Of a DNA stretch of 64,000 nucleotides, positions 60,518 through 64,000 are shown piece by piece; the stretch's first letter is position 1, and each line of letters begins with the position of its first letter. The stretch comes from Xylanibacter ruminicola Ga6B6 (lineage in GTDB: Bacteria; Bacteroidota; Bacteroidia; Bacteroidales; Bacteroidaceae). The DNA lies in the NCBI RefSeq assembly GCF_000687715.1, contig NZ_JHXD01000019.1:1-64000 (forward strand), given 5' to 3'. The translations under genes were made by a program, and so were the position numbers. Below the pieces are notes generated by a model. The model was not told the DNA's origin. It was given only the letters and a program-made list of their open reading frames with translations, and ran no database searches.

Positions 60518-61573
60518 ATGGAAAAGGAAAACAGAATAATCAATATCAACCTTCCGATGGTTGTCAGGATGCTTATTGCTGACAAACGTAAGATTATCAT
60601 CTTTACATGTGTATCTGGTCTCGTAGGTTTGATTTTGGCTTTTTGTACACCTAAGATATACAAGTCAACAGTCATTTTGGCTCCAGAAGAATCTGGAGCA
60701 GGTTTTTCAGGCAGTCTGTCGTCATTGGCATCCATGGTAGGTATGAACATCAAAGTGGGCCAGACAGGTGATGCAATCTACCCTGAGATATACCCCGGTT
60801 TGATGTCATCCAACAATTTCATTGTTGACTTGTTTCCCGTTACCGTCACCAGAGATGAAACAGGTGAGCAGTATACTTATCAAGATTATTTGCAGCATCA
60901 TCAGCGGGAGGCCTTTTACATTTATCCGGGAATTTGGATAAAAAAAATGATTGAAGGTTTAACATCTAAGCAATCCTCTGACATCCACAAGGTGAATCCG
61001 TTCCGTCTGACCAAGGATGAATACAAGATTGTCAAAGTAATAAAGAAAAGAATCAGCTGTTCCGTTGATAAGAAAACGAATGTTATTACGATAACCGTAG
61101 AAGACCGTGATCCGCTCATTGCTGCTACTATGGCAGACTCCGTTCAGGTACACCTGCAACATGCTATTACTAACTATCGCACAAAGAAAGCACGTATTGA
61201 TCTCGAATATATGCAGCAGCTATTCGATGAAGCTAAGGAGCAATACAGACAAGCCCGTCAAGCATACGCTGCCTGTGCCGATTCCTATCAGAACGTAAAG
61301 CTCCAATCTTACGCCCAGAAGGTGAATGAACTTGAAAACGAGATGCAGTTGAAATTCACGATCTATCAGCAGATAAGTGAACAGCTGCATTTGGCCAAGG
61401 CGAAGGTACAGGAGCGCATACCTGCTTTTACCATTGTGCAGGGAGCTAGCGTCCCCGTCAAGTCCAGTAGTCTTCCAAAGGTAGTATCACTCTTTATATG
61501 GATGATACTTGGTTTCATGCTACGTATCAGCATGTTATTATGGAAAAACCGTCAACAGTTCATCAATATCTAA
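60518..61573 (+). CDS. Wzz-type polysaccharide chain-length regulator
   Basis: From the ATG at 60518 the 351-residue protein has a membrane helix near 25-43, a long periplasmic part with coiled coils (about 215-300) and a second membrane helix near the C-terminus (about 325-345), the layout of Wzz/polysaccharide co-polymerases. IVQGASVPVKSSSLPK is the proline-containing segment before the last helix. It sets the length of O-antigen or capsule chains. It lacks a kinase domain. A longer frame starting at 60470 begins inside the promoter. Confidence 0.82.
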   Translation: MEKENRIININLPMVVRMLIADKRKIIIFTCVSGLVGLILAFCTPKIYKSTVILAPEESGAGFSGSLSSLASMVGMNIKVGQTGDAIYPEIYPGLMSSNNFIVDLFPVTVTRDETGEQYTYQDYLQHHQREAFYIYPGIWIKKMIEGLTSKQSSDIHKVNPFRLTKDEYKIVKVIKKRISCSVDKKTNVITITVEDRDPLIAATMADSVQVHLQHAITNYRTKKARIDLEYMQQLFDEAKEQYRQARQAYAACADSYQNVKLQSYAQKVNELENEMQLKFTIYQQISEQLHLAKAKVQERIPAFTIVQGASVPVKSSSLPKVVSLFIWMILGFMLRISMLLWKNRQQFINI

Positions 61574-61585
61574 ATACTGTTCATC

Positions 61586-63550
61586 TTGAAAAGACATCCC
61601 TATATCGTCACTACTGTTATAGCCACACTACTTGCCATTGTAGTATGGCTTTTGGTGCCTAAGGAATATACTGCTATTACCGAACTTAGTGATGAATACA
61701 AGGAGGTTGATTTAGCCATTGGACTTGATAAGATAAAAGCCCAAATCAAAAATGTTTCTGGTGGTGCAAACAAAGGCCTTGATAATATAGAAGTATATGC
61801 GAAAATCTTGAAAAGCAGAGATTTTGCCCGTTCCATATCCCAGTCAACAATTCCGGAAAAAAACGTGACGTATGGTGAGTATTTGAATGAAAAGGACACC
61901 ATAGATGCCATTCTTGATCATATCAACTACAACCTAAATGTCAAACGTCAAACCCTCACTATCAGTTTTACAGATCGCGATCCTGTTATCGCTGCACAAA
62001 TGTTAGACAGCGTAACAGCGCATCTGCAAACCACCATTACGGCCCAACGTCACCAAGTGGCTGAGGCTGCGCTGAAAAATGCCGTAGCCGAACTGGAGAG
62101 GGCGAACAGGGATTACCAGAACATAAGTAAAAGATACACCGCTTTTGTCGATTCTCATCATAACTCATCCACAGAGTTGGATATTCAGGAAGAAAAAGCA
62201 TTAGAGAATGAATGTAAGCACTCCTATGATCACCTCAGAAATATCACTAACGAGTATGTCCGTCAGTTGGCACTAAAGCAACGTGCCTATATGTCGTTTG
62301 CTGTGATACAAAGCAATACAATTCCTTTAGAACCCAATAGTTCTTTTCTTGGATACCTTCTTAGTTTCTTTTTCATTGGGCTTCTTTTTTCGCATGGTCT
62401 TATCTGTTATAAAAGAAAAAAAAGGGTCTTTGAATTGACTGTATTAAGTGATTGTTTTTCACCTTGGAATCTCACTATCCTTATTTGGGCACTTATTTTG
62501 GGATTGTATTACATTTTAAACACACAATTATATCCAATTACTGAACAGTTTTATTACTGCCTAATCATTTGGGTCCCCATATTTTGCGTCTGTTCATATC
62601 TTTTTTATGAATTAACAGATTCTTCTAAATACAATAATAACAATGGATTTAATAAGAATGTCTTTTCATTCTTCTTAATTATCTCAATGATTATAACACC
62701 ACTCTACGTATATCGCATTTTTCAGATCGTCTCCATGTTTAGTGCCGATGACCTTATGATGAACATTCGAATACTAGCAGTTTTTGGTGAAGGTCAAGGA
62801 ATTCTCGGCCAGTCCATTATGCTTAATCAGGCTTTACTAGTTACCGCATTATGGGCATATCCCCGGATACCATTATGGCAGGTTATAATTTCTGCTATAG
62901 TATGTTGCTTGTCTGCATTCGCAATTATGGAAAAAGGTACACTGTTTTTCATCTTTATTTGTATAATATTTGTTTTGCATCATAAGAAAATAATCAAATT
63001 AAGGACTATTATTGTAGCAGGATTATTACTTGTCGTTTTTTTCTATGTGTTCACCATACAGCGCGGAGGTGATGACAATGGTTATTCTACCATTTCTGAC
63101 TTTATTGCAATGTATGTTTTGTCGCCGCCTGTAGCTTTTTGCCAACTCTTGCCTGAAACAACGCCTCAATTTGGAGCAAATACATTTGGAACCATTTACC
63201 ATTTTATGATTCGTTTTGGCATAAATGACGTTGTCGAAAAATTAAGGACTCAGGATGTTGTTATGGTACCTATTCCAACCAATGTTTATACAATTTTCCA
63301 ACCTTTTTATATCGATTTTGGGTATAAAGGTATTGCATTTTTTTCTGCATTATATGGTATAATATGCGGTTTTCTATATCGTCTGTATAAAAACAATAAC
63401 ACTATCGGATGCTGTCTTTATACATTTGTTGTATACGTCTTAATTCTTCAGTTTTATCAAGAAAATATATTTTTTAACCTTGCTCCAGTTGTCGTATTTG
63501 CAGTTCTTGTATATTTGATGACTCAGCAACATATAAAAATCCAGTTCTGA
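61586..63550 (+). CDS. Wzz-like domain fused to a Wzy-like polysaccharide polymerase
   Basis: The 654-residue protein appears to join two functions. Residues 1-275 have the Wzz plan: helix 6-24, periplasmic coiled-coil part, then IQSNTIPLEPNSSFLG and a second helix (254-275), homologous in outline to the preceding gene. Residues about 295-654 hold ten or more helices with loops like those of Wzy/EpsG oligosaccharide repeat-unit polymerases, ending in YQENIFFNLAPVVVF. The frame is continuous across the junction and starts with TTG, 12 bases after the previous stop. Polymerase function is inferred from topology and position. Confidence 0.68.
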   Translation: MKRHPYIVTTVIATLLAIVVWLLVPKEYTAITELSDEYKEVDLAIGLDKIKAQIKNVSGGANKGLDNIEVYAKILKSRDFARSISQSTIPEKNVTYGEYLNEKDTIDAILDHINYNLNVKRQTLTISFTDRDPVIAAQMLDSVTAHLQTTITAQRHQVAEAALKNAVAELERANRDYQNISKRYTAFVDSHHNSSTELDIQEEKALENECKHSYDHLRNITNEYVRQLALKQRAYMSFAVIQSNTIPLEPNSSFLGYLLSFFFIGLLFSHGLICYKRKKRVFELTVLSDCFSPWNLTILIWALILGLYYILNTQLYPITEQFYYCLIIWVPIFCVCSYLFYELTDSSKYNNNNGFNKNVFSFFLIISMIITPLYVYRIFQIVSMFSADDLMMNIRILAVFGEGQGILGQSIMLNQALLVTALWAYPRIPLWQVIISAIVCCLSAFAIMEKGTLFFIFICIIFVLHHKKIIKLRTIIVAGLLLVVFFYVFTIQRGGDDNGYSTISDFIAMYVLSPPVAFCQLLPETTPQFGANTFGTIYHFMIRFGINDVVEKLRTQDVVMVPIPTNVYTIFQPFYIDFGYKGIAFFSALYGIICGFLYRLYKNNNTIGCCLYTFVVYVLILQFYQENIFFNLAPVVVFAVLVYLMTQQHIKIQF

Positions 63551-63561
63551 ATGATATAATA

Positions 63562-64000
63562 ATGGAAGAGATAAATAATAAAAGGTCCAAACTAATACGT
63601 AATAATATCATACTTTCCTTCTTTACTAAAGGATGGTCTGCTATCGTATTGCTTATGATAGTTCCTGTAACGCTTAATTGTTTGGGAGAGTATAAAAACG
63701 GAGTGTGGTTGACAATCAGTAGCCTTCTTTTGTGGATTGAAAACATGGACATTGGATTAGGAAATGGTTTGAGAAACACACTTGCTATACATCTGGCACA
63801 TAATGACATTCAGAAAGCAAAATCAGTCATATCATCAGCATATGCCATGCTGACATTGATTATGATACCTATTGCAATAGTATTGTTTGTTCTTATCAAG
63901 ACGTATGACACATATATACTATTTAATGTATCCACAAACATTGTTACAAACCTTGATTCTTTGCTGATCGTTACGTCCCTTTTAGTTTGTACCTCCTTTA
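63562..64000 (+). CDS. Polysaccharide repeat-unit flippase (Wzx-like), partial
   Basis: This gene runs off the window; 146 codons are visible. The N-terminus has a hydrophobic helix SAIVLLMIVPVTLNCLG, then GVWLTISSLLLWIENMDIG followed by LGNGLRNTLA, a pattern typical of Wzx-like lipid-linked oligosaccharide flippases, and further helices. It starts 11 bases after the polymerase stop. Base composition is clearly more AT-rich than the housekeeping genes, as in many surface-glycan loci. Confidence 0.75.
   Translation, partial: MEEINNKRSKLIRNNIILSFFTKGWSAIVLLMIVPVTLNCLGEYKNGVWLTISSLLLWIENMDIGLGNGLRNTLAIHLAHNDIQKAKSVISSAYAMLTLIMIPIAIVLFVLIKTYDTYILFNVSTNIVTNLDSLLIVTSLLVCTSF

Follow-up and report, generated by a model that had tools for sequence, protein, structure and literature searches.

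A natural fusion of a second Wzz co-polymerase with the predicted repeat-unit polymerase Wzy in Xylanibacter ruminicola and its relatives

We show that a single open reading frame of Xylanibacter ruminicola Ga6B6, located at positions 61586-63550 (+) of the analysed window (the whole stretch of 64,000 nucleotides from contig NZ_JHXD01000019.1), is a genuine and conserved fusion of a second Wzz chain-length regulator (Wzz2) with a predicted repeat-unit polymerase (Wzy), and that this wzz2::wzy gene belongs to a surface-polysaccharide system comprising OPX, wzz1, wzz2::wzy and wzx. The preliminary description of this DNA, made from the sequence alone, had proposed one continuous frame with a Wzz-like module (residues 1-275) and a Wzy-like module (residues 295-654) directly behind a second, separate Wzz. 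Our analysis bears this out: the frame runs for 654 codons without a stop, the modules lie at residues 1-279 and 288-643, the earlier limits thus being correct to about ten residues, and the preceding gene wzz1 passes the Wzz family PF02706 (30.9 bits, cut-off 25.5, scored on the longer reading from TTG 60470).

The fused frame and its two modules

The protein of 654 amino acids starts with a TTG codon (61586-61588, +), the only ATG, GTG or TTG candidate ahead of membrane helix 1 since the preceding in-frame stop codon is that of wzz1 (61571-61573). Its Wzz2 module (residues 1-279; 61586-62422, +) shows the layout of a Wzz protein, i.e. a membrane helix on either side of a periplasmic domain that contains long helices: according to model and hydropathy, helix 1 covers residues 5-23 (6-24 by hydropathy; 61598-61654, +), helix 2 covers residues 254-277 (62345-62416, +), and the periplasmic domain in between (28-242) contains long helices at residues 133-190 and 197-233. 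The model of the whole fusion, built from 23 fusions, is of middling confidence (mean pLDDT 75.8, pTM 0.62). Structure prediction had been suggested as a check, and in our model residues 1-279 match polysaccharide co-polymerase (PCP) folds, including KpsE (Z 16.1), Wzc (Z 15.0, rmsd 2.4 over 168 residues) and WzzE (Z 12.6); the best 25 matches by Z (11.2-16.1), falling inside model residues 1-284, are all KpsE, Wzc, WzzE or FepE entries. No solved Wzy is present among the fold matches listed, and the comparison is not informative on the fold of that half.

Profile comparison connects Wzz2 to the Wzz family by way of Wzz1: columns 24-349 of the Wzz1 profile match residues 2-279 of the fusion profile with a probability of 99.9 and an E-value of 1.2e-34, showing Wzz2 to be homologous to a Wzz that passes PF02706. 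The fusion itself reaches 18.5 bits as whole protein and 21.8 bits for the N-terminal part, both below the PF02706 gathering score of 25.5, and a match at E <= 0.01 is obtained for 6 of 23 fusions. Because of these scores we file Wzz2 as PCP by fold and profile, not as a member of PF02706. In an NCBIfam scan of 23 fusions the polymerase is named in all of them and a chain-length family in only one, so that the fusion is easily overlooked.

The Wzy module (residues 288-643; 62447-63514, +) matches the oligosaccharide repeat unit polymerase family TIGR04370 with 172.5 bits (cut-off 40) over model positions 6-395 of 396, and all 23 aligned fusions match this family at E <= 0.001. The preliminary description had made its reading depend on the C-terminal part belonging to a Wzy-type family, which is thereby supported, and the fused Wzy is, by family, a predicted repeat-unit polymerase. 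The Pfam family O_anti_polymase scores 20.5 bits on the C-terminal part, under its cut-off of 24.2. The module carries several predicted membrane helices and begins with an FSPW motif (residues 291-294; 62456-62467, +), which is preceded by a short charged linker (residues 278-290; 62417-62455, +) placed in the cytoplasm by inference from the alignment.

The whole-model match, the FSPW motif and several predicted membrane helices are features that the fused Wzy has in common with separate TIGR04370 polymerases; the two differ in what stands ahead of the motif. Among 42 separate polymerases, 39 of them with an alignable start, an own hydrophobic helix ending just ahead of the (D)xFSPW-type motif is present in 38 of these 39, whereas the fusion has only Wzz2 helix 2 and the short charged linker before the motif. 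Since the own helix of Wzy is missing from the fusion, our conclusion, as judged by position in the sequence, is that Wzz2 helix 2 replaced Wzy helix 1. The charges following the helix suggest, by the positive-inside rule, that Wzz2 helix 2 and Wzy helix 1 both run from the periplasm to the cytoplasm. The sole exception among the 39 (L067:1-2925, genome G201) is a separate TIGR04370 polymerase without an own first helix, starting with MQNKFNIFSPW and sitting directly behind a CotH-kinase reading frame (PF08757).

Conservation, gene neighbourhood and module exchange

A search for the same architecture in relatives, as proposed earlier, was done as a conservation scan of another genome collection, in which each species is represented once, resulting in 23 further loci from records of Prevotella, Prevotellaceae or Bacteroidaceae, eight of which name a ruminant stomach compartment. 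In all 23 loci one unbroken frame contains both modules, and wzz1 lies just upstream on the same strand; a fusion without wzz1 was found neither among these loci nor in the window. The loci L038/L039 and L046/L048 look like near-copies. In an alignment of the window's fusion with 22 of the 23 loci, identities to the window's fusion range from 38 to 86%. Among four pairs tried, every calculable dN/dS ratio of either half lies far below 1; for the window compared to L044 it amounts to 0.21 in Wzz2, 0.17 in the linker (19 codons) and 0.18 in Wzy, the exception being the linker of the pair L038-L056 (0.82 over 20 codons).

The Wzz2-Wzy fusion is rare, most of the relatives sampled having the polymerase as a gene of its own. 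In a 300-genome family search the fusion occurs in three genomes beyond that of the window (G189, G049 and G295, which are the genomes of L053, L054 and L057), and no full-length match is found in other sampled genomes of the window's genus. TIGR04370 matches at E <= 1e-15 are present in 50 of 395 genomes of the phylum, and among the matches listed no frame other than the window's is longer than 477 codons. At E <= 1e-10, 77 of 399 family genomes show a match; among the matches listed joint frames occur only in the window's genome and in G189, G049 and G295, the next longest frame (G184) having 568 codons but encoding 407 amino acids from its first start codon. Within the window's genome no match other than the fusion passes the TIGR04370 cut-off.

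The separate co-polymerase gene wzz1 (60518-61573, +) encodes 351 amino acids from ATG 60518, which is likely to be its start rather than TTG 60470, and its model contains two helices (pLDDT 71.1). In the window wzz1 and the fusion share one frame, and we considered readthrough from wzz1 into the fusion; as the gap between them is 12 nt in 7 of 23 loci and varies in the others from -8 to +63, we reject it as a rule. Behind the fusion follows a wzx-like flippase gene (63562-64000, +, continuing past the window to contig base 64893; 443 amino acids) with scores just under the cut-offs (MatE 24.1 bits against 24.9, Polysacc_synt_3 20 bits against 23), and a wzx homologue lies directly behind the fusion in all 22 other loci tested. 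An OPX match is found in 19 of 22 other loci, in 16 of them upstream and adjoining wzz1 and in three downstream on the opposite strand. On the window's contig wzx is followed by three glycosyltransferases (two of family 2, one of group 1) and, further downstream on the opposite strand, by an 815-amino-acid OPX protein with Poly_export and SLBB domains. Near the contig end this OPX gene adjoins a transposase reading frame (rve, HTH_21; L059:10997-12369, contig 70496-71868), by reading of IS3 type, with a second reading frame behind it at the contig end. L074, from the same genome as L054, contains two systems back to back on either side of a single OPX gene: the minus strand carries wzz and wzy as a pair of separate genes, the plus strand wzz1, the fusion and wzx.

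Four relatives have the same gene set in split form: OPX, wzz1, wzz2, wzx and wzy follow each other in this order as separate genes in G040, G079 and G111 (OPX not being seen in the stretch covered for G111), and G213 has the order OPX, wzz1, wzz2, wzy, again as separate genes. Their Wzy proteins are 38-39% identical to that of the window and, unlike the fusion, keep their own first helix. In G111, wzx lies in two separate frames (L065:2312-3634). Several more distant relatives have a single Wzz, and we infer that a second, shorter Wzz arose first and was later joined to Wzy. In a quick Wzz tree with long branches, whose root was not inferred, one side of a branch (SH-aLRT 98) consists of the fused Wzz2 rows, apart from Wzz1. 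The split wzz2 rows join next to the fused ones, as would be expected if split wzz2 were the same gene as fused Wzz2. A single origin of the fused polymerases is compatible with the polymerase half (AU p 0.37).

Comparison of the two halves shows exchange of modules between fusions. L045 shares 70% identity with the window in Wzz2 and 37% in Wzy, with a switch point at residue 242 (240-245) before helix 2; L036 switches near residue 220, also before helix 2, in the opposite sense to L045; and a clade consisting of L046, L047, L049, L052 and L053 combines a distant Wzz2 with a close Wzy, the switch in this older clade being located at FSPW or beyond. A strong change (gain > 15) is detected in 93 of 231 row pairs, at residues 280-299 in 41, at 350-379 in 25 and elsewhere in the others. 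With groups picked after the identities had been seen, AU tests reject L045 grouping with the window and L044 for Wzy (p 1.5e-5), L045 grouping with L055 and L058 for Wzz2 (p 1.2e-4) and leaving L045 out of the window-L036-L044 group for Wzz2 (p 9e-5). Identities of Wzz1 and Wzz2 correlate with r 0.89, those of Wzz2 and Wzy with r 0.29; the latter weak correlation is mostly due to one divergent clade, as without it the values are 0.84 and 0.63, and without this clade and L045 0.85 and 0.75. The switch positions are mixed: helix 2 moved with Wzy in two recent exchanges and more often with Wzz2 in the older split, and it may belong to either module.

Mixed-ring proposal and alternatives

We propose a model according to which Wzz1 would supply most of the periplasmic and membrane ring and the fusion would join this ring via its Wzz2 part as one or few subunits, thereby placing Wzy inside the membrane lumen of the ring, with a possible effect on chain length. 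Wzz2 helix 2 would substitute for Wzy helix 1 so that ring subunit and enzyme share a helix, the TTG start would hold the fusion scarcer than the ATG-started Wzz1, and recombination could replace the Wzy part behind the Wzz2 handle, presumably upon a change of the sugar repeat unit. We give this proposal, taken as a whole with mixed ring, shared helix, TTG-limited fusion and exchangeable Wzy, an even chance. A tentative reading of the fusion as a stoichiometry-setting chimera, with one fusion per Wzz1 ring that brings its polymerase into the lumen via the shared helix, a scarcity set by TTG, a constant ring-docking handle and a swappable polymerase cartridge, is somewhat less likely than that.

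The mixed ring builds on the enterobacterial pair WzzE-WzyE (PCP-1, enterobacterial common antigen), which has the same two functions by family and assembles into a single complex whose Wzz ring encloses Wzy in its lumen, at a Wzz:Wzy ratio of about 8:1 (9.6 by dot blot), as described in PMC10030265. There the two are separate proteins, whereas in the present loci Wzy is covalently linked to one Wzz and another Wzz is encoded separately. This ratio, although that of the enterobacterial pair, together with the presence of wzz1 in all loci makes it more likely that the fusion is one subunit of a mixed ring than that it forms the whole ring; with eight fusions, eight Wzy would be present, presumably too many for the lumen. 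The preliminary description had expected a covalent co-polymerase to fix the ratio of Wzz to Wzy: the covalent link holds, but a simple 1:1 ratio need not follow from it. As to the shared helix, a review states that Wzz needs its second membrane helix to interact with Wzy, and it describes a 31-residue phage peptide as a mimic of this helix (PMC12004945).

The start codons are consistent with a scarce fusion. Of 23 fusions, 16 begin with TTG, which is the sole candidate in 15 of these 16, L045 having an ATG inside helix 1, whereas the chosen start of wzz1 is ATG in 20 of 23 loci and the first start of wzx is ATG in 19 of 20 genes recovered from 23 loci. TTG would lower translation of the fusion, and conservation of such a weak start would suit a subunit of which few copies are required; the weak start is not universal, as seven of 23 fusions begin with ATG. 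The TTG start may predate the fusion, since the second Wzz has no ATG in three split loci: the first 60 codons are free of ATG in three of the four split wzz2 genes, those of L063, L064 and L065.

An alternative that we consider unlikely is that the fusion forms a homo-oligomeric ring of its own with several Wzy around or under it, Wzz1 forming a separate ring or acting in export with OPX. Wzz2 having a full two-helix PCP fold, the upstream OPX gene standing beside wzz1 in 16 of 22 loci and the pairing of Wzz1-like proteins with OPX also in single-Wzz systems would agree with such a division, but the measured complex holds one Wzy in its lumen (PMC10030265), Wzz1 and Wzz2 change together, and wzz1 accompanies every fusion. 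It is similarly improbable that Wzz2 is a mere tether or anchor without chain-length control, or that the joining of two neighbouring genes was a neutral accident. Compared with Wzz1, Wzz2 is shorter and has lower identity between loci, and joining would have been easy since wzz2 and wzy are neighbours in G213; against this, Wzz2 is under purifying selection (dN/dS 0.07-0.21 in three of four pairs, those that could be calculated), has invariant residues such as DEYK 36-39 in all 23 fusions, and the fusion was retained across deep divergence and Wzy exchange.

We regard it as very improbable that the gene yields two proteins, separate Wzz2 and Wzy, by linker cleavage or an internal start. A possible in-frame ATG, GTG or TTG occurs at the columns of residues 255-300 in 16 of 23 fusions (in the window a TTG at residue 284), but seven of 23 have no such codon, and a Wzy cut there would be devoid of the first helix present in nearly all separate polymerases. 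An assembly error, frameshift or chance joining of two genes, for which we found no supporting point, is ruled out to near certainty by the identical joint frame in 23 loci from other assemblies and the low dN/dS on both sides; the earlier concern of a sequencing error is thereby dispelled as a general explanation, even though some relatives have two genes.

Relation to known systems and other long polymerase frames

PCP-2a proteins such as Wzc, which is among the best fold matches of Wzz2, likewise combine a PCP with a pathway partner, the Wzz-like part being C-terminally fused to a tyrosine kinase (PMC12004946). The partner there is a cytoplasmic kinase, whereas that of the fusion is a membrane polymerase: Pfam and NCBIfam scans detect no kinase family in the fusion, its C-terminal part being TIGR04370, and it therefore differs from PCP-2a. 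The preliminary description knew of no well-described example, and we found no natural Wzz-Wzy fusion among the open-licence papers listed by our literature searches. The Wzz-Wzy fusion is a new arrangement of known parts, which domain-architecture databases may already list without comment.

How Wzz controls Wzy, and in which ratio, is still being worked out, and structures of Wzy and of native complexes are lacking according to a 2025 review (PMC12004945). A natural covalent pair that evolution has retained and that strains exchange represents a stable object for cryo-EM, and the fusion allows a direct test of where Wzy is located, which Wzz helix it contacts and how many polymerases are needed per ring. 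Its presence in some Prevotella and close relatives provides a natural handle on regulator-polymerase cooperation.

We searched for a second fusion type among long Wzy_C (PF04932) frames in 296 Bacteroidota genomes. Twelve long frames were picked by eye among the matches listed and ten of them scanned, resulting in no Wzz match at E <= 0.01 in these ten and TPR matches in eight. Other Wzz-Wzy fusions may exist, most of all outside Bacteroidota. L138:1820-3895 and L139:1838-3904 encode Wzy_C proteins of about 690 amino acids without TPR, in which the family match falls in two stretches.
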